From positions 5,973,810 to 6,037,809 of the forward strand of contig CM041197.1 of assembly GCA_023078555.1 (NCBI GenBank): a stretch of DNA of 64,000 nt. The letters run 5' to 3'. Position numbers and translations under genes: made by a program. The notes below the pieces were generated by a model that was not told where the DNA came from, made no database searches, and saw nothing but the letters and a program-made list of their open reading frames with translations. This stretch comes from Ulva prolifera. Taxonomy: Eukaryota > Chlorophyta > Ulvophyceae > Ulvales > Ulvaceae. Shown piece after piece: positions 3,001 through 36,356 of the stretch (its first letter is position 1; each line of letters opens with the position of its first letter).

Positions 3001-3134
3001 AAGAGCAACATGCTTCCCTGTCACCTTGAAGTTGAAAAGTTCACAGGTGCTGAATATGTAATGTATTGGCTCATCGAGAAACGATGTTTCAGACGTCGAA
3101 GTGAAGTGATTTACTACATCACACTCTACACATG

Positions 3135-11100: not shown

Positions 11101-11564
11101 TGAAAAGTTCACAGGTGCTGAATATGTAATGTATTGGCTCATCGAGAAACGATGTTTCAGACGTCGAAGTTAAGTGATTTACTACATCACACTCTACACA
11201 TGACATAGGTGTGTGTGACCTTTGTTCACGTCCGTTAAGAGCAACATGCTTCCCTGTCACCTTGAAGTTGAAAAGTTCACAGGTGCTGAATATGTAATGT
11301 ATTGGCTCATCGAGAAAAGATTTTCCACACGTCGAAGTTGAGTGCTTCACTACAACACACTCTTCACATGACATAGGTGTGTGTGACCTTTGCGCACGTC
11401 CGTTAAGAGCAACATGCTTCCCTGTCACCTTGAAGTTAAAAAGTTCACAGGTGCTGAATATGTAATGTATTGGCTCATCGAGAAAAGATTTTCCACACGT
11501 CGAAGTTGAGTGCTTTACTACAACACACTCTTCACATGACATTGGTGTGTGTGACCTTTGCGCA

Positions 11565-13500: not shown

Positions 13501-16500
13501 AAAAGATTTTCCACACGTCGAAGTTGAGTGCTTCACTACAACACACTCTTCACATGACATAGGTGTGTGTGACCTTTGCGCACGTCCGTTAAGAGCAACA
13601 TGCTTCCCTGTCACCTTGAAGTTGAAAAGTCAACAGGTGCTGAATATGTAATGTATTGGCTCATCGAGAAATGATTTTTCACACGTCGAAGTTGAGTGCT
13701 TTACTACAACACACTTAACTCAAGATATAGGTGTGTGTGACCTTTGCGCACGTCCGTTAAAGCGCAACCGGGTTCCCTGTCACCTTGAAGTTGAAAAGTT
13801 CACAGGTGCTGAATATGTAATGTATTGGCTCATCGAGAAAAGATTTTCCACACGTCGAAGTTGAGTGCTTTACTACAACACACTCTTCACATGACATAGG
13901 TGTGTGTGTGTGTGACCTTTGCGCACGTCTGTTAAGAGCAACATGCTTCCCTGTCACCTTGAAGTTGAAAAGTTCACAGGTGATGAATATGACTTGTATT
14001 GGCTCATCGAGAAAAGATTTTCCACACGTCGAAGTTGAGTGCTTTACTGCAACACACTCTTCACATGACATAGGTGTGTGTGACCTTTGCGCACGTCCGT
14101 TAAAGCGCAACCGGCTTCCCTGTCACCTTGAAGTTGAAAAGTTCACAGGTGCTGAATATGAAATGTATTGGCTCAGCGAGAAAAGATTTTCCACACGTCG
14201 AAGTTGAGTGCTTTACTACAACACACTCTTCACATGACATAGGTGTGTGTGACCTTTGCGCACGTCCGTTAAGAGCAACATGCTTCCCTGTCACCTTGAA
14301 GTTGAAAAGTTCACAGGTGCTGAATATGTAATGTATTGGCTCATCGAGAAATAATTTTTCAGACGTCGAAGTTGAGTGCTTCACTACACCACACTATTCA
14401 CATGACATAGGTGTGTGTGACCTTTGCGCACGTCCGTTAAGAGCAACATGCTTCCCTGTCACCTAGTAGTTGAAAAGTTCACAGGCGCTGTATATGGCAT
14501 GCATTTTCACAGCGAGAAGAGAATTCGACACATTGGATCAGAGCGCTACTCTAAAAAACACTTATCACAAGACATAGGTGTGTGTGACCTTTGCGCACGT
14601 CCGTTAAGAGCAACATGCTTCCCTGTCACCTTGAAATTAAAAAGTTCACAGGTGCTGAATATGTAATGTATTGGCTCATCGAGAAAAGATTTTCCACACG
14701 TCGAAGTTGAGTGCTTTACTACAACACACTCTTCACATGACATAGGTGTGTGTGACCTTTGCGCACGTCCGTTAAGAGCAACATGCTTCCCTGTCACCTT
14801 GAAGTTGAAAAGTTCACAGGTGCTGAATATGTAATGTATTGGCTCATCGAGAAACGATGTTTCAGACGTCGAAGTTAAGTGATTTACTACATCACACTCT
14901 ACACATGACATAGGTGTGTGTGACCTTTGTTCACGTCCGTTAAGAGCAACATGCTTCCCTGTCACCTTGAAGTTGAAAAGTTCACAGGTGCTGAATATGT
15001 AATGTATTGGCTCATCGAGAAATGATTTTTCAGACGTCGAAGTTAAGTGATTTACTACATCACACTCTACACATGACATAGGTGTGTGTGACCTTTGCGC
15101 ACGGCCGTTAAGAGCAACATGCTTCCCTGTCACCTTGAAGTTGAAAAGTTCACAGGTGCTGAATATGTAATGTATTGGCTCATCGAGAAAAGATTTTCCA
15201 CACGTCGAAGTTGAGTGCTTCACTACAACACACTCTTCACATGACATAGGTGTGTGTGACCTTTGCGCACGTCCGTTAAGAGCAACATGCTTCCCTGTCA
15301 CCTTGAAGTTGAAAAGTTCACAGGTGATGAATATGACTTGTATTGGCTCATCGAGAAAAGATTTTCCACACGTCGAAGTCGAGTGCTTTACTGCAACACA
15401 CTCTTCACATGACATAGGTGTGTGTGACCTTTGCGCACGTCCGTTAAAGCGCAACCGGGTTCCCTGTCACCTTGAAGTTGAAAAGTTCACAGGTGCTGAA
15501 TATGTAATGTATTGGCTCATCGAGAAAAGATTTTCCACACGTCGAAGTTGAGTGCTTTACTACAACACACTCTTCACATGACATAGGTGTGTGTGACCTT
15601 TGCGCACGTCTGTTAAGAGCAACATGCTTCCCTGTCACCTTGAAGTTGAAAAGTTCACAGGTGATGAATATGACTTGTATTGGCTCATCGAGAAAAGATT
15701 TTCCACACGTCGAAGTTGAGTGCTTTACTGCAACACACTCTTCACATGACATAGGTGTGTGTGACCTTTGCGCACGTCCGTTAAAGCGCAACCGGCTTCC
15801 CTGTCACCTTGAAGTTGAAAAGTTCACAGGTGCTGAATATGAAATGTATTGGCTCAGCGAGAAAAGATTTTCCACACGTCGAAGTTGAGTGCTTTACTAC
15901 AACACACTCTTCACATGACATAGGTGTGTGTGACCTTTGCGCACGTCCGTTAAGAGCAACATGCTTCCCTGTCACCTTGAAGTTGAAAAGTTCACAGGTG
16001 CTGAATATGTAATGTATTGGCTCATCGAGAAATAATTTTTCAGACGTCGAAGTTGAGTGCTTCACTACACCACACTATTCACATGACATAGGTGTGTGTG
16101 ACCTTTGCGCACGTCCGTTAAGAGCAACATGCTTCCCTGTCACCTAGTAGTTGAAAAGTTCACAGGCGCTGTATATGGCATGCATTTTCACAGCGAGAAG
16201 AGAATTCGACACATTGGATCAGAGCGCTACTCTAAAAAACACTTATCACAAGACATAGGTGTGTGTGACCTTTGCGCACGTCCGTTAAGAGCAACATGCT
16301 TCCCTGTCACCTTGAAATTAAAAAGTTCACAGGTGCTGAATATGTAATGTATTGGCTCATCGAGAAAAGATTTTCCACACGTCGAAGTTGAGTGCTTTAC
16401 TACAACACACTCTTCACATGACATAGGTGTGTGTGACCTTTGCGCACGTCTGTTAAGAGCAACATGCTTCCCTGTCACCTTGAAGTTGAAAAGTTCACAG

Positions 16501-16951
16501 GTGATGAATATGACTTGTATTGGCTCATCGAGAAAAGATTTTCCACACGTCGAAGTCGAGTGCTTTACTGCAACACACTCTTCACATGACATAGGTGTGT
16601 GTGACCTTTGCGCACGTCCGTTAAAGCGCAACCGGCTTCCCTGTCACCTTGAAGTTGAAAAGTTCACAGGTGCTGAATATGAAATGTATTGGCTCAGCGA
16701 GAAAAGATTTTCCACACGTCGAAGTTGAGTGCTTTACTACAACACACTCTTCACATGACATAGGTGTGTGTGACCTTTGCGCACGTCCGTTAAGAGCAAC
16801 ATGCTTCCCTGTCACCTTGAAGTTGAAAAGTTCACAGGTGCTGAATATGTAATGTATTGGCTCATCGAGAAACGATGTTTCAGACGTCGAAGTTAAGTGA
16901 TTTACTACATCACACTCTACACATGACATAGGTGTGTGTGACCTTTGTTCA

Positions 16952-18887
16952 CGTCCGTTAAGAGCAACATGCTTCCCTGTCACCTTGAAGTTGAAAAGTT
17001 CACAGGTGCTGAATATGTAATGTATTGGCTCAATCGAGAAAAGATTTTTCAGACGTCGAAGTTAAGTGATTTACTACATCACACTCTACACATGACATAG
17101 GTGTGTGTGACCTTTGCGCACGGCCGTTAAGAGCAACATGCTTCCCTGTCACCTTGAAGTTGAAAAGTTCACAGGTGCTGAATATGTAATGTATTGGCTC
17201 ATCGAGAAACGATGTTTCAGACGTCGAAGTTAAGTGATTTACTACATCACACTCTACACATGACATAGGTGTGTGTGACCTTTGTTCACGGCCGTTAAGA
17301 GCAACATGCTTCCCTGTCACCTTGAAGTTGAAAAGTTCACAGGTGCTGAATATGTAATGTATTGGCTCATCGAGAAAAGATTTTCCACACGTCGAAGTTG
17401 AGTGCTTCACTACAACACACTCTTCACATGACATAGGTGTGTGTGACCTTTGCGCACGTCCGTTAAGAGCAACATGCTTCCCTGTCACCTTGAAGATGAA
17501 AAGTTCACAGGTGCTGAATATGTAATGTATTGGCTCATCGAGAAATAATTTTTCAGACGTCGAAGTTGAGTGCTTCACTACACCACACTATTCACATGAC
17601 ATAGGTGTGTGTGACCTTTGCGCACGTCCGTTAAGAGCAACATGCTTCCCTGTCACCTAGTAGTTGAAAAGTTCACAGGCGCTGTATATGGCATGCATTT
17701 ACACAGCGAGAAGAGAATTCGACACATTGGATCAGAGCGCTACTCTAAAAAACACTTATCACAAGACATAGGTGTGTGTGACCTTTGCGCACGTCCGTTA
17801 AGAGCAACATGCTTCCCTGTCACCTTGAAGTTGAAAAGTTCACAGGTGATGAATATGACTTGTATTGGCTCATCGAGAAAAGATTTTCCACACGTCGAAG
17901 TTGAGTGCTTTACTGCAACACACTCTTCACATGACATAGGTGTGTGTGACCTTTGCGCACGTCCGTTAAAGCGCAACCGGCTTCCCTGTCACCTTGAAGT
18001 TGAAAAGTTCACAGGTGCTGAATATGAAATGTATTGGCTCAGCGAGAAAAGATTTTCCACACGTCGAAGTTGAGTGCTTTACTACAACACACTCTTCACA
18101 TGACATAGGTGTGTGTGACCTTTGCGCACGTCCGTTAAGAGCAACATGCTTCCCTGTCACCTTGAAGTTGAAAAGTTCACAGGTGCTGAATATGTAATGT
18201 ATTGGCTCATCGAGAAACGATGTTTCAGACGTCGAAGTTAAGTGATTTACTACATCACACTCTACACATGACATAGGTGTGTGTGACCTTTGTTCACGTC
18301 CGTTAAGAGCAACATGCTTCCCTGTCACCTTGAAGTTGAAAAGTTCACAGGTGCTGAATATGTAATGTATTGGCTCATCGAGAAAAGATTTTCCACACGT
18401 CGAAGTTGAGTGCTTTACTACAACACACTCTTCACATGACATAGGTGTGTGTGACCTTTGCGCACGTCTGTTAAGAGCAACATGCTTCCCTGTCACCTTG
18501 AAGTTGAAAAGTTCACAGGTGATGAATATGACTTGTATTGGCTCATCGAGAAAAGATTTTCCACACGTCGAAGTCGAGTGCTTTACTGCAACACACTCTT
18601 CACATGACATAGGTGTGTGTGACCTTTGCGCACGTCCGTTAAAGCGCAACCGGCTTCCCTGTCACCTTGAAGTTGAAAAGTTCACAGGTGCTGAATATGA
18701 AATGTATTGGCTCAGCGAGAAAAGATTTTCCACACGTCGAAGTTGAGTGCTTTACTACAACACACTCTTCAAATGACATAGGTGTGTGTGACCTTTGCGC
18801 ACGTCCGTTAAGAGCAACATGCTTCCCTGTCACCTTGAAGTTGAAAAGTTCACAGGTGCTGAATATGTAATGTATTGGCTCATCGAG
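16952..18887. repeat. Second long-range duplicated block in satellite 1, copy 2
   Basis: Same-orientation copy of 11565-13500. Few differences are visible; one is CTTCAAATGACATAGG at about 18770 in place of CTTCACATGACATAGG. Confidence 0.8.
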
Positions 18888-21800
18888 AAACGATGTTTCA
18901 GACGTCGAAGTTAAGTGATTTACTACATCACACTCTACACATGACATAGGTGTGTGTGACCTTTGTTCACGTCCGTTAAGAGCAACATGCTTCCCTGTCA
19001 CCTTGAAGTTGAAAAGTTCACAGGTGCTGAATATGTAATGTATTGGCTCATCGAGAAAAGATTTTCCACACGTCGAAGTTGAGTGCTTCACTACAACACA
19101 CTCTTCACATGACATAGGTGTGTGTGACCTTTGCGCACGTCCGTTAAGAGCAACATGCTTCCCTGTCACCTTGAAGTTGAAAAGTCAACAGGTGCTGAAT
19201 ATGTAATGTATTGGCTCATCCAGAAATGATTTTTCACACGTCGAAGTTGAGTGCTTTACTACAACACACTTAACTCAAGATATAGGTGTGTGTGACCTTT
19301 GCGCACGTCCGTTAAAGCGCAACCGGGTTCCCTGTCACCTTGAAGTTGAAAAGTTCACAGGTGCTGAATATGTAATGTATTGACTCATCGAGAAAAGATT
19401 TTCCACACGTCGAAGTTGAGTGCTTTACTACAACACACTCTTCACATGACATAGGTGTGTGTGTGACCTTTGCGCACGTCTGTTAAGAGCAACATGCTTC
19501 CCTGTCACCTTGAAGTTGAAAAGTTCACAGGTGATGAATATGACTTGTATTGGCTCATCGAGAAAAGATTTTCCACACGTCGAAGTTGAGTGCTTTACTG
19601 CAACACACTCTTCACATGACATAGGTGTGTGTGACCTTTGCGCACGTCCGTTAAAGCGCAACCGGCTTCCCTGTCACCTTGAAGTTGAAAAGTTCACAGG
19701 TGCTGAATATGAAATGTATTGGCTCAGCGAGAAAAGATTTTCCACACGTCGAAGTTGAGTGCTTTACTACAACACACTCTTCACATGACATAGGTGTGTG
19801 TGACCTTTGCGCACGTCCGTTAAGAGCAACATGCTTCCCTGTCACCTTGAAGTTGAAAAGTTCACAGGTGCTGAATATGTAATGTATTGGCTCATCGAGA
19901 AATAATTTTTCAGACGTCGAAGTTGAGTGCTTCACTACACCACACTATTCACATGACATAGGTGTGTGTGACCTTTGCGCACGTCCGTTAAGAGCAACAT
20001 GCTTCCCTGTCACCTAGTAGTTGAAAAGTTCACAGGCGCTGTATATGGCATGCATTTTCACAGCGAGAAGAGAATTCGACACATTGGATCAGAGCGCTAC
20101 TCTAAAAAACACTTATCACAAGACATAGGTGTGTGTGACCTTTGCGCACGTCCGTTAAGAGCAACATGCTTCCCTGTCACCTTGAAATTAAAAAGTTCAC
20201 AGGTGCTGAATATGTAATGTATTGGCTCATCGAGAAAAGATTTTCCACACGTCGAAGTTGAGTGCTTTACTACAACACACTCTTCACATGACATAGGTGT
20301 GTGTGACCTTTGCGCACGTCCGTTAAGAGCAACATGCTTCCCTGTCACCTTGAAGTTGAAAAGTTCACAGGTGCTGAATATGTAATGTATTGGCTCATCG
20401 AGAAACGATGTTTCAGACGTCGAAGTTAAGTGATTTACTACATCACACTCTACACATGACATAGGTGTGTGTGACCTTTGTTCACGTCCGTTAAGAGCAA
20501 CATGCTTCCCTGTCACCTTGAAGTTGAAAAGTTCACAGGTGCTGAATATGTAATGTATTGGCTCATCGAGAAATGATTTTTCAGACGTCGAAGTTAAGTG
20601 ATTTACTACATCACACTCTACACATGACATAGGTGTGTGTGACCTTTGCGCACGGCCGTTAAGAGCAACATGCTTCCCTGTCACCTTGAAGTTGAAAAGT
20701 TCACAGGTGCTGAATATGTAATGTATTGGCTCAATCGAGAAAAGGTTTTCCACACGTCGAAGTTGAGTGCTTTACTACAACACACTCTTCACATGACATA
20801 GGTGTGTGTGACCTTTGCGCACGTCCGTTAAGAGCAACATGCTTCCCTGTCACCTTGAAGTTGAAAAGTTCACAGGTGCTGAATATGTAATGTATTGGCT
20901 CATCGAGAAAAGATTTTCCACACGTCGAAGTTGAGTGCTTCACTACAACACACTCTTCACATGACATAGGTGTGTGTGACCTTTGCGCACGTCCGTTAAG
21001 AGCAACATGCTTCCCTGTCACCTTGAAGTTGAAAAGTCAACAGGTGCTGAATATGTAATGTATTGGCTCATCGAGAAATGATTTTTCACACGTCGAAGTT
21101 GAGTGCTTTACTACAACACACTTAACTCAAGATATAGGTGTGTGTGACCTTTGCGCACGTCCGTTAAAGCGCAACCGGGTTCCCTGTCACCTTGAAGTTG
21201 AAAAGTTCACAGGTGCTGAATATGTAATGTATTGGCTCATCGAGAAAAGATTTTCCACACGTCGAAGTTGAGTGCTTTACTGCATCACACTCTACACATG
21301 ACATAGGTGTGTGTGACCTTTGCGCACGGCCGTTAAGAGCAACATGCTTCCCTGTCACCTTGAAGTTGAAAAGTTCACAGGTGCTGAATATGTAATGTAT
21401 TGGCTCATCGAGAAACGATGTTTCAGACGTCGAAGTTAAGTGATTTACTACATCACACTCTACACATGACATAGGTGTGTGTGACCTTTGTTCACGTCCG
21501 TTAAGAGCAACATGCTTCCCTGTCACCTTGAAGATGAAAAGTTCACAGGTGCTGAATATGTAATGTATTGGCTCATCGAGAAACGATGTTTCAGACGTCG
21601 AAGTTAAGTGATTTACTACATCACACTCTACACATGACATAGGTGTGTGTGACCTTTGTTCACGGCCGTTAAGAGCAACATGCTTCCCTGTCACCTTGAA
21701 GTTGAAAAGTCAACAGGTGCTGAATATGTAATGTATTGGCTCATCGAGAAATGATTTTTCACACGTCGAAGTTGAGTGCTTTACTACAACACACTCTTCA

Positions 21801-22309
21801 CATGACATAGGTGTGTGTGACCTTTGCGCACGTCCGTTAAGAGCAACATGCTTCCCTGTAACCTTGAAGTTGAAAAGTTCACAGGTGCTGAATATGTAAT
21901 GTATTGGCTCAATCGAGAAAAGGTTTTCCACACGTCGAAGTTGAGTGCTTTACTACAACACACTCTTCACATGACATAGGTGTGTGTGACCTTTGCGCAC
22001 GTCCGTTAAGAGCAACATGCTTCCCTGTCACCTTGAAGTTGAAAAGTTCACAGGTGCTGAATATGTAATGTATTGGCTCATCGAGAAAAGATTTTCCACA
22101 CGTCGAAGTTGAGTGCTTTACTACAACACACTCTACACATGACATAGGTGTGTGTGACCTTTGTTCACGGCCGTTAAGAGCAACATGCTTCCCTGTCTCC
22201 TTGAAGTTGAAAAGTTCACAGGTGCTGAATATGACTTGTATTGGCTCATCGAGAAAAGATTTTCCACACGTCGAAGTTGAGTGCTTTACTACAACACACT
22301 CTTCACATG

Positions 22310-24295
22310 ACATAGGTGTGTGTGACCTTTGCGCACGTCCGTTAAGAGCAACATGCTTCCCTGTCACCTTGAAGTTGAAAAGTTCACAGGTGCTGAATAT
22401 GTAATGTATTGGCTCATCGAGAAATAATTTTTCAGACGTCGAAGTTGAGTGCTTCACTACACCACACTATTCACATGACATAGGTGTGTGTGACCTTTGC
22501 GCACGTCCGTTAAGAGCAACATGCTTCCCTGTCACCTAGTAGTTGAAAAGTTCACAGGCGCTGTATATGGCATGCATTTACACAGCGAGAAGAGAATTCG
22601 ACACATTGGATCAGAGCGCTACTCTAAAAAACACTTATCACATGACATAGGTGTGTGTGACCTTTGCGCACGTCCGTTAAGAGCAACATGCTTCCCTGTC
22701 ACCTTGAAGTTAAAAAGTTCACAGGTGCTGAATATGTAATGTATTGGTTCATCGAGAAAAGATTTTCCACACGTCGAAGTTGAGTGCTTTACTACAACAC
22801 ACTCTTCACATGACATAGGTGTGTGTGACCTTTGCGCACGTCCGTTAAGAGCAACATGCTTCCCTGTCACCTTGAAGTTGAAAAGTTCACAGGTGCTGAA
22901 TATGTAATGTATTGGCTCAATCGAGAAAAGATTTTTCAGACGTCGAAGTTAAGTGATTTACTACATCACACTCTACACATGACATAGGTGTGTGTGACCT
23001 TTGCGCACGGCCGTTAAGAGCAACATGCTTCCCTGTCACCTTGAAGTTGAAAAGTTCACAGGTGCTGAATATGTAATGTATTGGCTCATCGAGAAACGAT
23101 GTTTCAGACGTCGAAGTTAAGTGATTTACTACATCACACTCTACACATGACATAGGTGTGTGTGACCTTTGTTCACGGCCGTTAAGAGCAACATGCTTCC
23201 CTGTCACCTTGAAGTTGAAAAGTTCACAGGTGCTGAATATGTAATGTATTGGCTCATCGAGAAAAGATTTTCCACACGTCGAAGTTGAGTGCTTCACTAC
23301 AACACACTCTTCACATGACATAGGTGTGTGTGACCTTTGCGCACGTCCGTTAAGAGCAACATGCTTCCCTGTCACCTTGAAGATGAAAAGTTCACAGGTG
23401 CTGAATATGTAATGTATTGGCTCATCGAGAAATAATTTTTCAGACGTCGAAGTTGAGTGCTTCACTACACCACACTATTCACATGACATAGGTGTGTGTG
23501 ACCTTTGCGCACGTCCGTTAAGAGCAACATGCTTCCCTGTCACCTAGTAGTTGAAAAGTTCACAGGCGCTGTATATGGCATGCATTTACACAGCGAGAAG
23601 AGAATTCGACACATTGGATCAGAGCGCTACTCTAAAAAACACTTATCACAAGACATAGGTGTGTGTGACCTTTGCGCACGTCCGTTAAGAGCAACATGCT
23701 TCCCTGTCACCTTGAAGTTGAAAAGTTCACAGGTGATGAATATGACTTGTATTGGCTCATCGAGAAAAGATTTTCCACACGTCGAAGTTGAGTGCTTCAC
23801 TACAACACACTCTTCACATGACATAGGTGTGTGTGACCTTTGCGCACGTCCGTTAAGAGCAACATGCTTCCCTGTCACCTTGAAGTTGAAAAGTCAACAG
23901 GTGCTGAATATGTAATGTATTGGCTCATCGAGAAATGCTTTTTCACACGTCGAAGTTGAGTGCTTTACTACAACACACTTAACTCAAGATATAGGTGTGT
24001 GTGACCTTTGCGCACGTCCGTTAAAGCGCAACCGGGTTCCCTGTCACCTTGAAGTTGAAAAGTTCACAGGTGCTGAATATGTAATGTATTGGCTCATCGA
24101 GAAAAGATTTTCCACACGTCGAAGTTGAGTGCTTTACTGCAACACACTCTTCACATGACATAGCTGTGTGTGACCTTTGCGCACGTCTGTTAAGAGCAAC
24201 ATGCTTCCCTGTCACCTTGAAGTTGAAAAGTTCACAGGTGATGAATATGACTTGTATTGGCTCATCGAGAAAAGATTTTCCACACGTCGAAGTTG
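22310..24295. repeat. Long-range duplicated block in satellite 1, copy 2
   Basis: Second copy of the 3135-5120 block, 19,175 bp away in the same orientation. The order of monomer sub-types, including two marker monomers and the rare AGTCAACAGG and ACTTAACTCAAGATATAGG variants, is preserved. Confidence 0.8.
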
Positions 24296-25054
24296 AGTGC
24301 TTCACTACAACACACTCTTCACATGACATAGGTGTGTGTGACCTTTGCGCACGTCCGTTAAGAGCAACATGCTTCCCTGTCACCTTGAAGATGAAAAGTT
24401 CACAGGTGCTGAATATGTAATGTATTGGCTCATCGAGAAAAGATTTTCCACACGTCGAAGTTGAGTGCTTTACTACAACACACTCTTCACATGACATAGG
24501 TGTGTGTGACCTTTGCGCACGTCCGTTAAGAGCAACATGCTTCCCTGTCAATTTGAAGTTGAAAAGTTCACAGGTGCTGAATATGTAATGTATTGGCTCA
24601 ATCGAGAAAAGATTTTTCAGACGTCGAAGTTAAGTGATTTACTACATCACACTCTACACATGACATAGGTGTGTGTGACCTTTGCGCACGGCCGTTAAGA
24701 GCAACATGCTTCCCTGTCACCTTGAAGTTGACAAGTTCACAGGTGCTGAATATGTAATGTATTGGCTCATCGAGAAACGATGTTTCAGACGTCGAAGTTA
24801 AGTGATTTACTACATCACACTCTACACATGACATAGGTGTGTGTGACCTTTGTTCACGTCCGTTAAGAGCAACATGCTTCCCTGTCACCTTGAAGTTGAA
24901 AAGTTCACAGGTGCTGAATATGTAATGTATTGGCTCATCGAGAAAAGATTTTCCACACGTCGAAGTTGAGTGCTTTACTACAACACACTCTTCACATGAC
25001 ATAGGTGTGTGTGACCTTTGCGCACGTCTGTTAAGAGCAACATGCTTCCCTGTC

Positions 25055-25272
25055 ATGTCTTCAGCCGCACATACACTTGGAACCCTGTCCCACTCATACA
25101 TGCGGGATCAACGCCACTGCTGGCAATTATGCGCATCATCATTTGTCTTTGTAGGTGTAAATCCAGCGTAACAGCACACCCAGAGCTGCGCTAAACTATG
25201 ACACAACCGAGAGACATCCTGCTGAAAGAGCAGCCAGGTCATTGGCGGGACGCATTTGCTTTACATGCGATG
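25055..25272. other. Unique junction between satellite 1 and the telomere-type tract
   Basis: The last satellite monomer stops after CCTGTCA, followed by about 218 bp that I find nowhere else in the window, then ATGGGGGGTTAGGGG. No open frame, tRNA fold or recognisable element is apparent. If the telomere reading is right, this is the complete subtelomere of this chromosome end, with satellite reaching to about 220 bp from the telomere repeats. Confidence 0.6.
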
Positions 25273-27332
25273 GGGGGTTAGGGGTTAGGGGTTAGGGGTT
25301 AGGGGTTAGGGGTTAGGGGTTAGGGTTAGGGGTTAGGGGTTAGGGGTTAGGGGTTAGGGGTTAGGGGTGAGGGGGTAAGGGGTTAGGGGGTTAGGGGTTA
25401 GGGGTTAGGGTGTTAGGGTTAGGGGTTAGGGGTTAGGGGTTAGGGTTAGGGGTTAGGGGTTAGGGGTTAGGGGTTAGGGGTAGGGGTTAGGGGTTAGGGG
25501 TTAGGGGTTAGGGGTTTGGGGTTGGGGTTAGGGGTTAGGGGGTTAGGGGTTAGGGGTGGTTAGGGGTAGGGGTTAGGGTAGGGGTTAGGGTAGGGTTAGG
25601 GGGTTAGGGGTTAGGGGTTAGGGTTAGGGGTTAGGGGGTTAGGGGTTAGGGGTTAGGGGTTAGGGGTTAGGGGGTTAGGGTTAGGGGTTAGGGGTTAGGG
25701 GTTAGGGTTAGGGGTAGGGGTTAGGGGTTAGGGGTTAGGGGTTAGGGGTTAGGGGTTAGGGGTTATGGGGGGTTAGGGGTTAGGGGTTAGGGTTAGGGGG
25801 TTAGGGGTTAGGGGTTAGGGGGTTAGGGGTTAGGGGTTAGGGGTTAGGGGTAGGGTTAGGGGTTAGGGGTTAGGGTTAGGGGTTAGGGGTTAGGGGTTAG
25901 GGGTTAGGGGTTAGGGGTTAGGGGTTAGGGGTTAGGGGTTAGGGGTTAGGGGTTAGGGGTTAGGGGTTAGGGGTTAGGGGTTAGGGGTTAGGGGTTAGGG
26001 GTTAGGGGTTAGGGGTTAGGGGTTAGGGGTTAGGGGTTAGGGGTTAGGGGTAGGGGTTAGGGGTTAGGGGTTAGGGGTTAGGGGTTAGGGGTTAGGGGTT
26101 AGGGGTTAGGGGTTAGGGGTTAGGGGTTAGGGGTTAGGGGTTAGGGGTTAGGGGTTAGGGGTTAGGGGTTAGGGGTTAGGGGTTAGGGGTTAGGGGTTAG
26201 GGGTTAGGGGTTAGGGGTTAGGGGTTAGGGGTTAGGGGTTAGGGGTTAGGGGTTAGGGTTAGGGGTTAGGGGTTAGGGGTTAGGGGTTAGGGGTTAGGGG
26301 TTAGGGGTTAGGGGTTAGGGGTTAGGGGTTAGGGGTTAGGGGTTAGGGGTTAGGGGTAGGGGTTAGGGGTTAGGGGTTAGGGGTTAGGGGTTAGGGGTTA
26401 GGGGTTAGGGGTTAGGGGTTAGGGTTAGGGGTTAGGGGTTAGGGGTTAGGGGTTAGGGGTTAGGGGTTAGGGGTTAGGGGTTAGGGGTTAGGGGTTAGGG
26501 TTAGGGGTTAGGGGTTAGGGTTAGGGTTAGGGGTTAGGGGTTAGGGTTAGGGGTTAGGGGTTAGGGGTAGGGTAGGGTTAGGGGTTAGGGGTTAGGGGTT
26601 AGGGGTTAGGGGTTAGGGGTTAGGGGTTAGGGGTTAGGGGTTAGGGGTTAGGGTTAGGGTTAGGGGTTAGGGGTTAGGGGTTAGGGGTTAGGGGTTAGGG
26701 GTTAGGGGTTAGGGGTTAGGGGTTAGGGGTTAGGGGTTAGGGGTTAGGGGTTAGGGGTTAGGGTAGGGTTAGGGGTTAGGGGTTAGGGGTTAGGGGTTAG
26801 GGGTTAGGGGTTAGGGGTTAGGGGTTAGGGGTTAGGGGTTAGGGGTTAGGGGTTAGGGGTTAGGGGTTAGGGGTTAGGGGTTAGGGGTTAGGGGTTAGGG
26901 TTAGGGGTTAGGGGTTAGGGGTTAGGGGTTAGGGGTTAGGGGTTAGGGGTTAGGGGTTAGGGGGTTAGGGGTTAGGGGTTAGGGGTTAGGGGTTAGGGGT
27001 TAGGGGTTAGGGGTTAGGGTTAGGGGTTAGGGGTTAGGGGTTAGGGGTTAGGGGTTAGGGGTTAGGGGTTAGGGGTTAGGGGTTAGGGGTTAGGGTTAGG
27101 GGTTAGGGGTTAGGGGTTAGGGGTTAGGGGTTAGGGTTAGGGTTAGGGGTTAGGGGTTAGGGGTTAGGGGTTAGGGGTTGGGTTAGGGGTTAGGGGTAGG
27201 GGTTAGGGGTTAGGGGTTAGGGGTTAGGGGTTAGGGGTTAGGGTTAGGGTTAGGGGTTAGGGGTTAGGGGTTAGGGGTTAGGGGTTAGGGTTAGGGGTTA
27301 GGTGGTATTAGGCGTACGGGTGTAGGGGTTAG
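25273..27332 (+). repeat. Telomere-type repeat tract, (TTAGGGG)n with variants
   Basis: About 2.06 kb of 7-bp TTAGGGG repeats, with interspersed TTAGGG, TAGGGG and TTAGGGGG variants and rare substitutions (TTTGGGG, TTATGGGG). The left 0.6 kb is the most irregular; from about 25870 long perfect runs dominate. The last 30 bases before the gap are degenerate (GGTGGTATTAGGCGTACGGG). The G-rich strand reads 5'->3' to the right, which is the orientation of a right-hand chromosome end. Read errors in G runs could explain part of the length variation. An interstitial telomeric tract is possible, but the length, orientation and abutting gap favour a true terminus. Confidence 0.9.
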
Positions 27333-27432
27333 NNNNNNNNNNNNNNNNNNNNNNNNNNNNNNNNNNNNNNNNNNNNNNNNNNNNNNNNNNNNNNNNNNNN
27401 NNNNNNNNNNNNNNNNNNNNNNNNNNNNNNNN
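27333..27432. other. Assembly gap of exactly 100 N
   Basis: One hundred consecutive undefined bases. A round number of this size is a conventional placeholder for a join of unknown length made by scaffolding, so the sequence on the two sides need not be adjacent in the genome. Confidence 0.98.
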
Positions 27433-27479
27433 GTAAACTATCCCTTCTGTCCCTGAGGGACGGATCATTTGGGACCAAG

Positions 27480-28334
27480 ATGGACCGAGACGGGTCGTGT
27501 TCAGCGTCAACATATGTACACCGGTGGTCGCCTGCCTCATCCAGTCCCTGTGCTCAGTGCCCGTGTAGCCACATGTGGCCTTCTTCGACCACCGGCGTCG
27601 CAATCGCTAGCGCATGTCGTCTCCATTGCACAGAATACTACCTGTCGATTGTGCAATCGTCTTTGCCAGTGTATGTTGACAATGACGAAGGAGTGAGGTT
27701 TCAATTCGCGGTGAATCTCCGAGTACTGTCGTCGTGTGCAAGTATGATCTCGGCTGGGGCCTTACGGACATTGAAAGCTAAATTAGACAGTAATGAGTCG
27801 TATGAGAAGTCTTTCTATCGATTCGTGAAGGCCGCAGAGAGAGGAAAGTGGACGCCTGGGCAACCCATCCCAGAGATATCGCTATGCGACAGGGACGCGG
27901 GATTCCCCGTCGATCTCATGGGTCTTGGCTACGTTCTTACAGCAGCAGACATTACCATGGTGGGATGTGTGGTAGCAGCCGGTGGGGATGGGCTGGAGAT
28001 GTACCTTGATTCGATACAGGCGATGAAAGAAGCGGCAGACGCAGTGACCCCGACGGACAACGACTCCTACGTAGAGTGGAAGATGGTGTCCTTGTGGCAT
28101 GACCTTCGAGCACTCGCGTTCGAGCGCGCGGTCCGTACCGAGGCCCCGTGCGAGCCCCCAGAGATTGTGTTGTATAGATCGTGCCTGGACACGGTGGGAG
28201 TGGGGGAGGATGCCGGCGGCGCCCGCGAGCGTGTGCTGCTCACAGGCGGGACAGAGAGGATACAGGGAATGGGTAGGAGCGGGAGTCCACGGCTCCGCGG
28301 AATCCGGTACCGAAGTGGCCAGCGGCTGCAGTAA
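27480..28334 (+). CDS. Unrecognised coding exon(s), possible 5' part of the Ulp1-like gene
   Basis: An open frame runs from the gap edge to the TAA at 28332-28334; the first ATG is at 27480, but the frame is already open upstream, so the true start may lie in or beyond the gap. The stretch from about 27690 to 28215 looks genuinely coding: mixed amphipathic composition with EKSFYRFVKAAERGKW, FPVDLMGLGYVLTAADITM and YVEWKMVSLWHDLRALAFER. The first 70 codons (Cys/Ser/Pro-rich) look less coding and may be intronic, with a possible acceptor before TGTATGTTGACAATGAC near 27670. The last 35 codons become Gly/Arg-rich and probably run past a splice donor. I do not recognise a domain. The same strand and about 0.5 kb spacing suggest it is the amino-terminal part of the protease gene downstream, but the connecting low-complexity exons (28220-28735) cannot be resolved by eye. 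It could also be a separate gene. Confidence 0.45.
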   Translation: MDRDGSCSASTYVHRWSPASSSPCAQCPCSHMWPSSTTGVAIASACRLHCTEYYLSIVQSSLPVYVDNDEGVRFQFAVNLRVLSSCASMISAGALRTLKAKLDSNESYEKSFYRFVKAAERGKWTPGQPIPEISLCDRDAGFPVDLMGLGYVLTAADITMVGCVVAAGGDGLEMYLDSIQAMKEAADAVTPTDNDSYVEWKMVSLWHDLRALAFERAVRTEAPCEPPEIVLYRSCLDTVGVGEDAGGARERVLLTGGTERIQGMGRSGSPRLRGIRYRSGQRLQ

Positions 28335-28734
28335 CGGAGGCCCCGCTACAGGCACCGAGGATGTCAGTGCAGATCGATCTGGGGGACGCCGCTCGCTCGA
28401 GTCCGGTGGGAGCTTCCGAGGCACGCCATAACCTCGGGACCCGAGGAGGACCGTGCTTCGGTGCAGGCTGATTCCAGCGTCGGCAGTGCATCGGAGGGCG
28501 GGGCCAGGGGAGGGCGTGGTCAGCGGCTCAGGGGGGGCCGGGGGGGAGGCCGGTTCGGGGTGGGCATGCCCTTAGTCGTGGGCAGAGCCTACAACAGCCA
28601 GCACAGCTGCGAAGGGGGGGTCATCGTGGCAGGCGAGGGGGATGCTGCCGCAGTAGAGCGGGCCTTGGGAAGTCAGGCAGCCAAAGGGGGGGAGCACGCG
28701 AACCCCCAGGACCGATGGGGGGCCCCAGACAGCA

Positions 28735-31008
28735 GAGCCGCCTGAGCAACTACAGCCCGGCACCCTAGAGGCACCTGCCTCCCCACCCTCCAGGACCACC
28801 GGATGTCTGCCCCCACCGCTGGAGGGCTTGGGTCCATCACAGGCCGCCCCGCCCGCGCCCAAGGCGTCTGTGCTGCCAGGTGGGTCCAACCAAGAGCCTC
28901 TCCCAGCAGCAGGAGAGGACGTCAGTCACAGCGACACCTCCCACCACTCCTGGTGGAGGGGTGGTAGCGGGCGCGGGCCCGTCTGCCGGGCCTGGCCCCA
29001 TTGCCCCCAATGCGGCCGGGTACAGCGCGGCCACCCCCATCCCCGGCGGCGCAGACCCCACGGCGCAGCCACCCGCCGACCCGTCCGGGGCTACCCCCGG
29101 ACTGGTGGGGCCGAGGCTGCCTGCCCCCCACCCGGGAGCGGCCGATCGAGATGCTGCTACCATGGCTGAAGGTGTCGGGGTGTTGTCCGTCGCACATCTT
29201 GCCCCGCCTTTGTCTGATCCTCCGGCGTGGGTTTCAAACCTGCCAGCCAAGCCTCGGGCGAAACTGAAGCAGCTGTGGTCGCCCATTGCTCCAGGAGCTG
29301 GCGCCGTACAGTGGCATGGGGGGGAACCTGCGACGGAGATTTCCTCCGGCGAAGACGACGAGCCATCTCTACCGACGGGGGGCGTCTCGGTGCAGCTGGG
29401 TCACTTCGGGGAAGCTAGGGTGTTTGTGGAGGTGAGCTTGGATGCCATCGGGAGAGGCTGGCCCGAGGAGTGGCTGGAGTCGACCCACGTAGATTATGCG
29501 TGCGCTAGATGTGTGCAGCTGGCAGGTGGGGGTGTCATCGCAGTGCCTAGCCAGAACATGGCTAGGGTGTGCATGGGGGATTCGGGAGCAGAATGGACTG
29601 AAAGCCGCTCCGTCGCCTTGGGGAGCTGGCTGCACAAAGCGCATGCATTCGAACACGATAGCATCCTCGTCCCAGTCCCGCGGAACGGCCATTGGGCGTT
29701 GGCTGTCGTATGGCATCCATGTACGCTCCCTCGGCTGACCATGCCTGTGCAGAGTGTTAGGTGGGCATATAGTCCTCTCACCTGGCGGGGAGGCCCCTGA
29801 CTGTCAACACACATTGTGCTAGCTTGATGCAGGGCTCATGCTACAAGACCAGACCCCGAGTATGTTGTTTTTTGACAGCTTCACGGAAGCCGGGCCGGGC
29901 ACAGCTGAGCGGGTGCAGGACGCCCTAAGCGAGGCCCTGTGCAGGGCTCTCGACAAGGCGGAGGGCAGGGCCCCCGCTCATGCCAACCCCCCCCCAAAGC
30001 CCCAGTCACTGCCGGCAGGACAGGGCCGGCGACACAATGTTAGATTGGTCACCCGGCCGACAAAAGGAACGGCGAGGATAATGCTGAAGTTGTCGAAGGT
30101 TCGAATCTCACTGTTAGACACGCAGCTTAGAACGAGGCCTAGCAGTCCCTGAAATCTGCGTACAGCGAGTCGGATGAAACAACAAATGACCTTGTAGCCC
30201 CATTACAATCCGCATCCCGGCCCCACCCCTGACAGCACCCCACTGGGCCGTTCCATCGTTCTGGACCGTACGTTGCATCGGTTACCCGATGTCACCTCAG
30301 CCCCCCCACCAGACCCCACTGTGGAGTGCAGGTCGCCGGAGTCCCGCAGCAACCGAACGGCCACGACTGCGGGGTCTACACAGCTTTAATGGCCGACGCG
30401 CTATGCCAGGCTATGAGCGAGATGCGACAGGAGGGGGGGGACATGTTGCGCAGTGATCAGCACGGCGTGGAAATGACTTGAAGAATCGTTGTTCGCACTA
30501 AGCGCATCACCGTGCAACACGCGGTTTTGTACCGTATCCGCGTAACCCGGGCACTCATACAAGAGTGGCACCGGGGTGGGAGAGGTGGCGATGTGCTGGG
30601 CCGCCTATCCGCGGAGGATGCCACCAACATTCTAGCCGACGCGAGATGGGACCGCCACCTCCAGTCTCCGCCCTTTTCAAACAAGACCGAAGAGGAGTTG
30701 AGGTATGCACCTCCACACCCAACTGTGATGAGCAGGGCTACCTGTTTCCTCCCTCGATGCATCTCGGCGCAGTAGGGTTCCACAGGGGTAGCAGACCCAT
30801 TAAGTATTCAGAATCTCGGGAGAGCTGCTCCCCCAAACCGCAACGCCGCTGTATCAAGACCGTCTCACACTAGGGACTACCTGACTGCAGGCTGTGGTAT
30901 CTCCAAGCGAGTTTTGACGCCTTCATGGAGGAAGCAAAGCCGCACGTCAAAACACTCTGCAGGCAATACAACCAGCTAATGGCCAAGAAACTGCAACTGC
31001 GTCGCTGA
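28735..31008 (+). CDS. Ulp1/SENP-like (C48) cysteine protease domain, multi-exon, with an in-frame TGA
   Basis: C48 proteases cleave SUMO or related ubiquitin-like proteins from precursors or conjugates using a His-Asp-Cys triad and an oxyanion-hole Gln. All four are seen here in the usual order and spacing: His in NGHWALAVVW (codon 29690-29692), Asp in MLFFDSF (29874-29876), Gln (30350-30352) and Cys (30368-30370) in PQQPNGHDCGVYT. The model has exons from about 28735-28879, then 28932-29753, 29833-30038, 30332-30702 and 30891-31008; introns start with GT and end with AG and keep phase, though the donor near 30039 is the least certain. The exons before the domain encode a Pro/Ala/Gly-rich linker. 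The last two exons encode a charged helical tail ending KKLQLRR. A TGA at 30479-30481 interrupts the frame 36 codons after the Cys; the reading continues cleanly beyond it, so it is a nonsense mutation, a small intron, or readthrough. Ulp1-like domains occur in host SUMO proteases and in several DNA transposon families; I cannot decide between them. Confidence 0.7.
29754..29832 (+). other. Intron between the catalytic His and Asp exons
   Basis: The donor GTGTTAGG follows codon position 1 (phase 1); the acceptor TTGATGCAG precedes GGCTCATG. Splicing makes an Arg codon and joins the His strand to the LMLQDQTPSMLFFDSF segment. Length 79 bp. Without removal the frame stops at the TGA within GGCCCCTGACTG near 29798. 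Confidence 0.55.
30703..30890 (+). other. Last intron of the Ulp1-like gene
   Basis: The donor GTATGC after TTGAG and the acceptor CTGACTGCAG before GCTGTGG give a phase-2 junction that forms an Arg codon and continues LWYLQASFDAFMEEAKPHV to the stop at 31006-31008. Length 188 bp. The frame gained downstream has clear coding character, which supports the junction. Confidence 0.6.
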
Positions 31009-31287
31009 GTCATGAAGAAGTGGACATCATCGCCGGTAGGATCACAGGCATAGCCACGCAGCCGGTGGTGTGCTCGCCAGTCAGGTGGCAGGGATCATGT
31101 ATGTACCACTGCTACTGTAGGCCATAGGAAATGGGGCGGTGGCCACAGGGTCCCTTTGGCGAAGGGGCTACTGTAGAGGTAGACATGTCAAATCTCGACC
31201 TAGGGTGTTGGACTGCCTATCGGTACAACGGATACACCAGAAGTTGTACACCGAGTACTGAACTTGTATATTTGCAATATGATTACT

Positions 31288-31292
31288 TGTAA
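31288..31292 (+). terminator. Possible TGTAA polyadenylation signal (plus-strand gene)
   Basis: TGTAA, the signal typical of green algae, lies 280 bp past the stop of the Ulp1-like gene in an A/T-richer stretch. A pentamer occurs often by chance, so this is weak and matters only if the organism is a green alga. Confidence 0.2.
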
Positions 31293-31720
31293 TATGTCAC
31301 ATTTTGGACAGGTTGTACACTCGACAATACAGAAACGATACTCTTCAGCTATGATGTGAAGGACGAAGGGTAGCTTGTTCGCAGTGTATTGAGTACAACT
31401 GTAGAGGCCTAAGAAAAGCTCAACATTTGATACCCACGCTCACGCAGCCGCTCTGTCACATATGTACTGATGTACAGCATGCCAACAGCTTACATTCGTT
31501 AATATTCAAAGGATCATCATCAGACACTGAGAAACCAGCTTCGACAGCACAGAATGACTGCCTCCATACGCCCAACAAAACAAGGCTTAACCGCACGTCA
31601 AACCCCAAGGGACCCCCCCCCCCCCCCCCCCCCACCCCCCCCCCCCCCCCCCCTGGTCACGGAACCCTGCTGCATGCCCACATACCCCCAGTAGTGCATC
31701 TTCGACCGCCGGGCACTCCT

Positions 31721-31725
31721 TTACA
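31721..31725 (-). terminator. Possible TGTAA polyadenylation signal (minus-strand gene)
   Basis: TTACA on the plus strand (TGTAA on the minus strand) lies about 172 bp past the stop of the minus-strand gene. Same caveat as for the plus-strand signal: a pentamer can occur by chance. Confidence 0.2.
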
Positions 31726-31896
31726 GTGCTCCCCTAGGTAGTCTGGCGTCCCTGCACTTGGAGAAGCGTCACGCCGTAGGAACTACCGACAGAGGACAAG
31801 GCGGGGGCAGGGCGGAGCGGCGGTACAGGTTATGGGTACGGGGAGCATATGCAACAGTAGGGGGCTGGGGCAAACAGCTGTCACGTTCAGGGCAAG

Positions 31897-34800
31897 TTAA
31901 TTGAAAATGACGGAGCATACCCGTCGGAAAAGCTGGATGACCTCCCTGACAGTGGCATCGTCGGGCTGAAGCCCATACAGCTGAATCACCGACATGAGGC
32001 TGGCAGTCAGTGCTTCCGGATCCGACTGCAGCCTGGGATTACTCATCATCATGCATTCGCAGGCCACCACGATGAGCCGCAGTTGAGCAGGGCGCCCTAT
32101 TCCATGTGCCTGCGAGGTGTCTAAGTAGGCGTCCACCCGCAGGTGGGTTTGCTGCGCTGCGGGATACTGGTCCACGGTCAGCTGCAGGCTGCCCTCTTCA
32201 TCCTGCAGGTGGATGCCCTGGGATGGCGGGGGCCCCGGCATGAAGTCCTCACCCGCCTGATCATCATCCGACTCACCGTCAAGGCCCAGACTGGAAAGAC
32301 CGTCCGATGCTTCATCTGTAAGACGAACAGCGAAGGCGATGGCTGATGCATAGTCGGTGATGGCACAAGCAGCATCAACACCATCGCCATGGCCACCGAC
32401 AGCTTCCCTTGCCCCTAATGCCGCTGGTCTCGCCTGAGGGGAAGATGGGTTGGCCAAACCCGGCCCTGCCGATGCAACTCGGCTTGGGGCCCCACCCGAC
32501 TGTGCAGCAGTAGGCACGGCACTCACCTCGCTCGGGCGGACCGGCATCCTGAGACCACATCCGAGGTCGTCTGGGGGACATGCCCCATCCGATGGAAGTG
32601 CTGCAGCTACAGCAGACGGCGCTGCTAGGCCCGGCGGCATGACAGGAGCCAGCGACTCGGGCGGCCTGCCGGCTGCTGGCGCTGTGGACTGAAACTCTCC
32701 GGGTTCTGCTGGATCAGGCACCAGGCCATCCTCACCCCCCCCGACCTCCCTCGGCTGCGGAGCTGGTCCTCCCTGCCCGGACATAGCTGCGTCAGCGCTG
32801 CCGAGCGGCTTAGGAGCCGCTGCCCCCCCGCCCCCCCTCGGCTGCGGAGCTGGTCCTCCCTGCCCGGACACAACTGCGGCAGCGCTGCCGAGCGGCTTAG
32901 GAGCCGCTGCCCCCCCGCCCCCCCTCGGCTGCGGAGCTGGTCCTCCCTGCCCGGACATAGCTGCGTCAGCGCTGCCGAGCGGCTTAGGAGCCGCTGCCCC
33001 CCCGCCCCCCCTCGGCTGCGGAGCTGGTCCTCCCTGCCCGGACACAACTGCGGCAGCGCTGCCGAGCGGCTTAGGAGCCGCTGCCCCCCCGCCCCCCCTC
33101 GGCTGCGGAGCTGGTCCTCCCTGCCCGGACATAGCTGCGTCAGCGCTGCCGAGCGGCTTAGGAGCCGCTGCCCCCCCCCGCCCCCCCTCGGCTGCGGAGC
33201 TGGTCCTCCCTGCCCGGACACAACTGCGGCAGCGCTGCCGAGCGGCTTAGGAGCCGCTGCCCCCCCGCCCCCCCTCGGCTGCGGAGCTGGTCCTCCCTGC
33301 CCGGACATAGCTGCGTCAGCGCTGCCGAGCGGCTTAGGAGCCGCTGCCCCCCCGGTTGGAGGGGCCGGGGTCCCCCCCTGCCCACCGGACTCCTCAGTGT
33401 CGCTGTCGCTGTCCGCGGGGGCACTGGCAGCCGTGGCTCCCTTTTCGGCTTTCCGGGCGCCCAGTTTGCGCAGCAACAAAGCCTTTCCGCGTGCAGTGGT
33501 GCCTCCCGCGCCGGTCACCCTCCCCACTCCAGCCTTCCCACCGGCTACACGAACGCGCTTGTCAGCAGCAGCCTTCTCTGCTGCACTGCGCCCGACGCCG
33601 ACCCCCCCCGTGCCGGCACTTGGTGGTATGACAGGGGGGTGGCGGCTGTCCTCCGGGAGAGCGGCGAGGATGCCCGCGGGTATGTGGACGAGCTCGGCAC
33701 TGCACAAGTACCAGATGTGCACCCAAAGAAAGATACACTGAAGTGGCCACAGGGTATTACATAACAAGTTGGGACACGTGGTACAGGCAATAGACACAGC
33801 AATGTAGTAAACAGATACCCGCTGGCACAGAAACACGCGGCTTACGGGGTGTGCGCACTTGTAGCAGCTTGGACTCTGCATTCCTTTGGCGATTGACAGC
33901 TTTGCCAGTTCCACAGCGCCGGCGTATCCCCAGTCCTTGATCTCAGGGAACGTCCCTGGCCTTAGGCGAACGGGGGTCGTGGAGACCGGCCTGCCCGAAC
34001 TGCTCCCCGCGGAGACTTTATGCGCCACACTCAGGTGCCGCCAGCTCCGGAGCGCCCAGTGCCAGAGCGTGTGGGAAGGGCACAAGGGCAGCAGCTTGTC
34101 CACCAACCTCTTGACGGGAAGACCGTACCCCGACTTCACCAAGGCTGCACGCGCCGTGTGCGTCAGGTGTCCGCAACGCCTGCTCATTATTGGCTTGCCC
34201 CACACGAGGGGCTACTACAAGGCAGCACTGTACAGTGCACTGGCACCATGGCAAAAGAAAAGGAGACTGCGCACCGCTTGTATTCACCACGCACACCAGG
34301 ATGGCGGCAAAGGCAGGATCCTCGAGGGTGGGCTCCATCGCTGGAACGTCCTCTTGGCACCGCGTTTCCAGGACAGGCGCCCCAGGATGGCCGGTCACTG
34401 CCGCAGCGACGAGGCGCCGGTAGGCATGCATGAAGAGGTGGACACCACTTTCGGCAAATGCCGCCAGGTCCTCGGTGGTTCGCCGCAGCCCTACACATGC
34501 TCCCATAATTTGGGAGTAGCAGTTGTGGACAGAGCTCCACATGGGGCGGAGGGCTCGGGCAACTCGGTCTCCCTACACGGTTAGAACAAGGTGTTAACCA
34601 GCCCGGGGGGATGGACAAACTGGTGGAAGCCATAGCATAACGAAGTCACGCAGGTCAAGCTAACACTTACAGATGATTGGCGCATCGCACCCCTGACCTA
34701 TCGAACAGCGGGTGCTCCGCCGCATAAGCCAACACCCATGGTGTTAGAGTGGAAACGGCGGAGACAAGGTCGCCGAGGCATTTCATATCCTGCACACAAG

Positions 34801-36356
34801 GAGGTCTGCTGGACAACTCGAGCGAAGCCCTGTGTCAGGGTAGGACCGAGGTGTCACTCGTGACGGGGACACCACAGCCACTACCATGCATGCGCGAGTG
34901 AAGGCAGTGCCCTGCGTACAACAACCCGCACGAATACATGCAATGCTGCCAAACGACACAGCAAAAGTGTAAAGTCAGGAGCGCACGAGCGCGTGGATGA
35001 GGTCAGAGTGGAAGGATTCCACGTCCGCTAAGACCGGAGCGCCCGAGGTCAGCTGGTACACCGGGGTGGCAGGGACCCCATTTGTGTTGGCCAGCATTGC
35101 GTGACACCGGTCCCCAATGTGCCGGGCTACCGAATCGGCCGGCTGGAGCAGCTTTTCATTCATGCGGCTGAATCGGCTGCAGTGTGCGTTTACGTACAGC
35201 ACCCACGCTACCAGAGGGTTGAGTCCCTCTGGAAGGTTGGAGGTGGGTCTCTCCCTGCTCCGGCCTGCCTCGGCCCCCCCCTCCGCGGCACTCTGCTTCC
35301 CGGCGGTCCACAGTTTTGTGGCATGTGGGGACAGGCCGGAGACGTACGAAGCCCATGCCCACACAATGTGTCGGGGTGTTGAGCACCAGAACACTGCACC
35401 GACGACTCCGATTAAGTGCCTTACCCAGGACCTCTGGGACACGCCAATGAACTACAGGTACTGCAACTATGTACAAACGCGGTGGTGTTGGCGCGCACGC
35501 GGGGGCGCCAAAGGGACTGACTGCCGCAGATGGAACGTGAGCACACCGTCAGGAGGCGGGGGGTCCGGGCCTTTGCGCTTTTCCCCCACGTTGGCGTGTG
35601 GGATCTCAAAGCGCTGGGCCAGCTCCGGATCTCTTGCCTCGGTGATTGCTGTTGTCCGGACGCCTGAATCGGTTACCTGGCCGGTCACCCTAACCTGCAC
35701 AGGTGGTGGCACTAACTCCTCACCCACTCCGCACACCGGCTGGGCCCCTTGTCAGTCGAACAGGCGGTCGCAGCGGAGCGAGGGTGCAGGTCATGAACAT
35801 GTGATACCGCCCACCTGCCCAACAGGCACACACCTCCGTCGTTCCCTTCAGAGGCTTCCACCTCCGGGGCTCCGTACACCCAACTGGGGTCTTCCCCTGT
35901 CCCTCCCACGAGGACACGAGCAGAGTCTGCTCGTGGAGCCAGCCGGCGAACAGGAGGCAGGCTGTAATGATCACCTCCTTGGCCGTACCCAGCTCCTCGT
36001 CCCGACTGGCGACCACGGCGTCCCGCAATACCAACCCCAGGCCCCACCACACATCAACCCCAGGCCCGGATGCTGGACCACTTGAGCCACCGACGCGGGC
36101 ACGGTCCGTAAAACGCCCGTCTCTAGTAATAAACGATCCCACTACTGGGATTCTCCTAGTGCGCATGCGGCCGACCAGTAAGTCTGCGCTGCGCGCGGAA
36201 GTCACCCCATGTTGGGTACTTGGCAGGCCTGCCACAGCTGCAGAATGGCGCGGATCCATGACTACAGGCCACAGTAGGAGATCAAATGCTTTTTCGCTAA
36301 AGCGATAACTACTCACAAGCTGCGCAAATATGCGTTTAAACTCGACGTCCTTCCGA
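31897..36356 (-). CDS. Unrecognised large multi-exon protein with Cys/His clusters and a 29-residue repeat region
   Basis: Six exons on the minus strand fit together in phase: 36356-35834, 35739-35499, 35393-34987, 34572-34288, 34211-33846 and 33737-31897, with introns of 94, 105, 414, 76 and 108 bp, all GT-AG. They give about 1,219 codons; the start is not resolved, and a frame over about 36590-36440 may be an earlier exon. Order of features: a helical segment with KDVEFKRIFAQL and LLLWPVVMDPRHS; a Pro-rich piece; a helical region (SDLIHAL joined to GDRVARALRPMW); a Cys/His-rich region with RRCGHL, LCPSH and CYKCAHP joined to CIFLW; a Lys/Ala-rich basic stretch; an acidic DSDSDTEES patch; the 29-residue repeats; and a Gly/Ala/Pro linker followed by a folded-looking C-terminus ending RRVCSVIFN. 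The Cys/His groups could bind zinc. I recognise no family. The last exon is in frame only if two extra C's at 33171-33179 are discounted. The gene converges on the protease gene; a functional link is only a guess. Confidence 0.55.
32745..33352 (-). repeat. Seven-copy 87-bp coding minisatellite (29-residue unit)
   Basis: The unit boundary motif CCGGACA starts near 32778 and recurs every 87 bp (next to last interval 89). Each unit encodes SGQGGPAPQPRGGGG followed by AAAPKPLGS and a four-residue variable end. Two unit types alternate strictly along the array: one ends ADAAM (TAGCTGCGTCAG on the plus strand), the other AAVV (CAACTGCGGCAG). So the array grew as 174-bp dimers. It lies inside the last exon of the minus-strand gene. 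The encoded region is expected to be disordered. Confidence 0.85.
33171..33179 (-). other. Frame-breaking C9 homopolymer in the coding minisatellite
   Basis: All other repeat units have seven C's at this place (before the G and the next C7); this unit has nine. The two extra bases shift the frame between the upstream part of the last exon and its C-terminal part. With seven C's the exon is 1,839 nt, exactly 613 codons including the stop. Either a sequencing or assembly error in a homopolymer, or a real inactivating mutation. Confidence 0.7.

Follow-up and report, generated by a model that had tools for sequence, protein, structure and literature searches.

A telomere-capped contig probably joined in error to a contig that begins inside a CACTA-type transposon on a scaffold of Ulva prolifera

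The left-hand part of the analyzed stretch of Ulva prolifera DNA (64,000 nucleotides, C2:5973810-6037809, hereafter the window) is very probably a real chromosome end that was falsely joined to a contig starting in the middle of a transposon. The scaffold in question, C2, is 12.5 Mb long, in a genome assembly of 88.9 Mb and 44 contigs. The left contig would consist of satellite 1, a short captured fragment and telomerase-type GGGGTTA repeats running off the contig end. The right contig would begin inside a high-copy CACTA-type transposon because the assembly broke within that repeat, and the two would have been joined with a 100-N placeholder, presumably in a scaffolding step. The account is built on features observed in the assembly, namely the telomere array and the direction in which it runs, the gap, the start of the right contig in mid-transposon and the distant mate junction of the transposon. 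Overall, it amounts to ordinary telomere biology together with a scaffolding error. The coordinates are collected in Table 1; an Rfam scan of the window gave no matches, and Pfam detected no families in nine window ORFs.

Table 1. Features of the window (positions counted from its first letter), the mate junction and the long telomere arrays of the genome
Feature	Position	Strand	Details	Basis
Satellite 1	1..25055	+	168-bp unit, 149 copies within the window	TRF
Putative captured fragment, 213 bp, separating satellite 1 from the telomere repeats	25058..25270	+		Identity matches to C33 and C8
Telomere repeat array (GGGGTTA)n	25274..27332	+	G-strand towards the gap; 2,059 bp	TRF
100-N placeholder at the probable false scaffold join	27333..27432	.		
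Right 9,654 bp of putative CACTA-type DNA transposon	27433..37086	+	Left ~8.2 kb absent at the gap	
Peptidase_C48 (Ulp1-type protease) domain fragment in the transposon	30233..30478	+		PF02902
ACA, right copy of predicted 3-bp target duplication	37087..37089	+		
ACA, left copy	near C2:6209238-6209240	read on minus strand		Mate junction
Satellite 2, presumed insertion site of the transposon	37087..64000	+	167-bp unit	TRF
Long GGGGTTA arrays	C2 6.00 (window), 6.21 and 7.20 Mb; C4 8.02 and 10.59 Mb; C7 6.26 Mb; C12 0.023 Mb			Search with the window array

The array in the window is a tandem repeat of the 7-bp unit GGGGTTA, in which TRF counted 298.1 copies with 93% matches (score 3567). The exact unit occurred in 236 of the 296 parsed units, and the longest perfect run measured 203 bp, versus 7 bp at most when these bases were shuffled 200 times. 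The final stretch was irregular: of the 9 units from 27272 onward, 4 were canonical. The G-rich strand reads 5' to 3' rightward, as at a right-hand chromosome end, and the run of N that follows is exactly 100 long. A previous reading of the same DNA, made from its letters (the sequence-only reading), had described about 2 kb of telomere repeats in this orientation, reaching up to a 100-N placeholder. That description was accurate except for its starting point at 25055, which is the end of satellite 1; positions 25056-25273 are not telomeric. A gradient of regularity, as seen in the less canonical first 600 bp of the window array, was rejected as a general mark of such arrays, the counterexamples being those on C7 and at C4 10.59 Mb, where the inner edge was the most, or nearly the most, regular part.

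The array resembles telomerase-type telomeres of the TTAGGG-like family, in that it is a short G-rich tandem repeat with its G-strand towards the end and with some variant units, and in that the genome encodes a telomerase RNA-binding domain. It differs in its seven-base unit, TTAGGGG, and in being set on a satellite block by way of the 213-bp putative captured fragment. The telomerase domain (PF12009) was detected at C9:2069418-2070019 in two stretches of 58.5 and 40.8 bits (cut-off 25), and in none of 14 control genomes; one frame of this telomerase locus, searched against PDB, gave no matches. Nothing tying GGGGTTA telomeres to this genome was found in the literature searched, including passages of PMC10100673 and PMC10767889. 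Similarly, the literature on interstitial telomeres at misassemblies and on CACTA elements in algae yielded nothing tied to this genome.

A search of the genome with the window array revealed at least seven long GGGGTTA arrays, 435-3,192 bp in length, a count that is a lower bound, as arrays without an adjoining N may be missing from it. Nine further matches were short (31-83 bp) and lay away from the long arrays. In all seven of the long arrays found, a run of N occurred at the distal side, and in all seven the G-strand pointed towards it. The run consisted of 100 N in three cases and of a single N in the other four, and single Ns in sequence need not all mark joins. In some scaffolders, a single N denotes a predicted overlap. 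None of the seven was flanked on both sides by non-telomeric DNA in continuous sequence, which is what would distinguish an interstitial array. Moreover, no telomere array was detected in the first 9.9 kb of any of C1-C9, the nine largest scaffolds, or in the last 0.8 kb of any of them. Given the common orientation, the runs of N and the lack of arrays at the tested scaffold tips, the arrays have the character of contig ends, oriented as true telomeres would be, in agreement with the proposal in the sequence-only reading that a telomere-capped contig meets a scaffold join here. We infer from these patterns that the window array is a real chromosome end, which would also be the physical terminus of the chromosome in vivo.

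The false joining of telomere-capped contigs during scaffolding is a recognized assembly artefact. The window shares with such cases the N run of fixed size after the array and the repeat-broken contig beyond it, and differs in that the false join is argued here from sequence alone, through the mate junction of a split transposon. Other peculiarities of the assembly were observed: scaffolds C3 and C7 have identical last 200 bases, with the same final base, and C11 and C20 are exactly 100,000 and 200,000 bases long, respectively, as if an assembly tool had cut them out in bins of fixed size.

The region to the right of the gap, previously taken for a gene island, has instead the character of a truncated CACTA-type element. 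Its first 4,168 bp were matched in full at 11 other places, with 92-98% identity, as in a dispersed element. In the six best-scoring copies, which were fetched, the match continued upstream of the gap-edge base for at least 1,479 bp in every case, with mutual identity above 99.3%. At the right boundary (37086), the match stopped exactly in four of these copies and extended by 4-5 bases, with a mismatch, in the other two; all six carried the same 19-base terminus at this end. Two of the six right-end copies have a downstream flank in common, and the set therefore represents five independent flanks. In the window, the element terminates on the right with ...CTCCTAGTG; the copy on C1 has CACTAGGAGAATGGCGACA at its left end, which lies 8,178 bp upstream of the position equivalent to 27433. 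The same left end occurs in the mate piece described below, and the window right end is its reverse complement, so that the element has a terminal inverted repeat starting with CACTA, in which the 19 terminal bases are identical. Six end pairs, picked by hand from the ends listed, were separated by 17,603-18,260 bp, which gives a whole element of ~17.6-18.3 kb. From the mid-element start, the dispersed copies and the termini, the 9,654 bp right of the gap would thus represent a truncated CACTA-type transposon, apparently inserted in satellite 2, and the contig begins mid-element.

In common with CACTA (En/Spm) elements, the transposon has ends of the form CACTA...TAGTG and a fragment of an Ulp1-type protease (PF02902, 23.4 bits, cut-off 20.7, E 6.1e-05), to which the window insertion would add a 3-bp ACA duplication. 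In contrast, no transposase family was recognized by Pfam among the 21 unspliced stretches scanned within it (9 + 4 + 8), and DUF4218 scored 14.5 bits, below its cut-off of 27. The target duplication was present in one of the two copies examined: ACA is found on either side of the window insertion and its mate, versus CAG before the left end and CCC after the right end of the C1 copy, a lack of duplication that counts against the CACTA label. The right flank of the C1 copy is shared with a copy on C6. Matches to PF03491 (above its cut-off) and to four further families (below theirs), obtained with one frame of the C1 copy that is rich in repeats, were regarded as low-complexity. Within the transposon in the window are a 41-bp run of C (31613-31653) and, at 32736-33354, a minisatellite with 7.1 copies of an 87-bp unit; the matches of other copies enter the minisatellite at steps of ~87 bp, and its copy number seems to be variable.

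A test of the join was provided by the missing left end of the element. If the element was inserted into satellite 2 and duplicated 3 bp of its target there, the predicted left junction consists of 28 bases, in which satellite 2 is followed by ACA and CACTAGGAG... (CACTAGGAGAATGG). A genome-wide search, allowing up to three mismatches, detected a single match, which was perfect and located at C2:6209224-6209251(-), i.e., on the same scaffold, 198 kb from the window element and inverted. The mate piece (C2:6208666-6209237) comprises 572 bp of the left end of the element, with 99.5% identity to the C1 copy, and extends between the border with satellite 2 and a single N (6208665), beyond which lies another telomere array. 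The bases next to the element are ACA at both the window and the mate junctions. Joining the two flanks without the element produced an ungapped match to an intact satellite 2 monomer (99.2% over 241 bp), and at least 225 bp of the rejoined flanks were spanned in 86 of 161 matches. When 800 bp of each flank was used, the true register was the best of eight (2,727 bits versus 2,347-2,623 in the seven shifted controls), a control that is weak by itself (1 in 8) yet consistent with the other results. In the 6.0-7.1 Mb interval of C2, these two were the sole perfect 19-base ends; copies with one mismatch were seen among the matches listed.

The window and mate pieces would thus appear to be the two ends of one insertion, now split and 198 kb apart, with one piece inverted and ~7.6 kb missing, a reading that relies on the target duplication, the satellite register and the absence of other perfect ends nearby rather than on spanning sequence. 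If they belong to one split insertion, the join at the window gap would be false, as would that at C2:6208665. Since the mate junction is in satellite 2, the base after the gap would properly be preceded by the remainder of the transposon, with satellite 2 further out, and not by a telomere; the contig of this satellite now lies inverted from C2:6208666 on. The sequence-only reading had suggested that the satellite 1 block and the gene island would not be neighbors, and this is what the element indicates: the right side starts ~8.2 kb inside a transposon whose left junction lies, reversed, in the mate piece.

As for the far sides of the other six arrays, the one at C2 6.21 Mb is the mate piece itself, and the one on C12 opens with the truncated left end of a CACTA-type element (89.7% over 1.4 kb). 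The far side at C4 8.02 Mb begins within another dispersed repeat, three further long copies of which run at least 533 bp past the edge. The array at C4 10.59 Mb faces a satellite, as does the one at C2 7.20 Mb, and the far side on C7 had no match elsewhere among the loci compared. In total, four of the seven far sides, that of the window included, are contig ends broken in repeats. In C2:6205000-6212000, the second array lies inside satellite 2 and is followed by one N and then by the left 572 bp of the CACTA-type element. The layout on C12 repeats this arrangement: in C12:18000-27900 (4868-7382), a satellite is followed by the array, a single N, the cut and reversed CACTA-type left end of ~1.4 kb, and then the same satellite.

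The satellites bear on the order of C2 beyond the gap. To the left of the window, satellite 1 was present in 13 of 15 samples from 5.48-5.95 Mb, always in the same orientation, and it occurred again, in that orientation, in samples at 6.62, 6.67 and 6.82 Mb, beyond satellite 2. Its closest matches, among those listed, were all on C2. Satellite 2 extends into C2:6037000-6046900 and, among 24 samples taken between 6.05 and 6.42 Mb, was present in 20, with the orientation of the window in 4 and the reverse in 16. The middle of C2 resembles a stack of satellite contigs in poor order, where two chromosome ends (at 6.00 and 7.20 Mb) may face each other, with satellite contigs placed between them. 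The description of the right-hand contig as unrelated is sound only for adjacency at this gap; further on, the recurrence of satellite 1 past satellite 2 makes a common chromosome possible. The comparison of one monomer each of satellites 1 and 2 revealed no relation (score 19, with 37 of 200 shuffles as good), nor was any found between satellites 1 and 3 (score 15, 178 of 200) or 2 and 3 (score 14, 198 of 200). The three satellites, for which no sequence relation was detected, have units of nearly equal length (167-168 bp), close to the nucleosome repeat. A 53-bp satellite to the left of the 7.20-Mb gap (C2:7199400-7206400, 1-1842) also makes up the start of C2 (C2:1-9900).

The fragment between satellite 1 and the array shows 100% identity to an internal part of a repeat, with one such locus on C33 and two on C8. 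The donor repeat is at least 9.8 kb long, and the fragment is devoid of the donor flanks. In this position, it looks like the product of broken-end healing, i.e., telomere addition with capture, and the capture would be recent, as the 213 bp are still fully identical to the donor. The arrays at C4 10.59 Mb and on C12 begin inside a satellite monomer at TTGG, and at C2 6.21 and 7.20 Mb the satellite continues to within ~20 bases of the array. Tentatively, chromosome ends in this alga may turn over, by breakage in large satellites and addition of GGGGTTA by telomerase, either to a monomer (at TTGG) or to captured DNA.

The same observations raise the alternative that the array caps a chromosome that was broken and healed, in a fraction of the culture or on just one of the homologues, and that the standard chromosome continues through satellite 1. 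The recurrence of satellite 1 at 6.62-6.82 Mb indicates that a variant or truncated copy, rather than the standard chromosome, could be capped; the captured fragment adjoining the array, the two arrays that begin at TTGG within a monomer, and the occurrence of the same satellite on both sides of the join at C12, C4 10.59 Mb and C2 6.21 Mb also favor this explanation. We consider it rather unlikely, as a scaffolder that groups contigs of the same satellite would give the same picture without truncation. The join at the window gap would be false in this case as well.

Far less probable, and rejected, is an interstitial array, for example the relic of a chromosome fusion, with the scaffold order across the gap being right. 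The position of the array, at 6.0 Mb of a 12.5-Mb scaffold, and the reappearance of satellite 1 further to the right would suit such an array. Conversely, the right side starts mid-transposon, with its left junction elsewhere in satellite 2, and all seven long arrays end at N in telomere orientation, none continuing distally in the seven loci read. Least credible, and likewise rejected, is a CACTA element inserted into or beside the telomere, its left 8 kb merely hidden by a placeholder whose 100 N do not give the true gap size: cut CACTA-type left ends do lie beyond the arrays on C12 and at C2 6.21 Mb, but these have satellite on the outside and are cut on the array side, and the window element has satellite 2 as its right flank and a matching left junction, with the same ACA, also in satellite 2.

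A false join between a telomere-capped contig and a mid-transposon contig thus remains much the best explanation of the window. To treat this stretch of C2 as one locus, whether as a satellite 1 block with the transposon and satellite 2 next to it, as a mid-chromosome telomere or as a fusion point, would be wrong at the gap. The fault is likely to be wider than this single gap: all seven of the long arrays found are situated at internal runs of N, and the chromosome number, chromosome ends and synteny of the assembly therefore need to be checked. The split-transposon test offers a way to reveal such false joins without reads.
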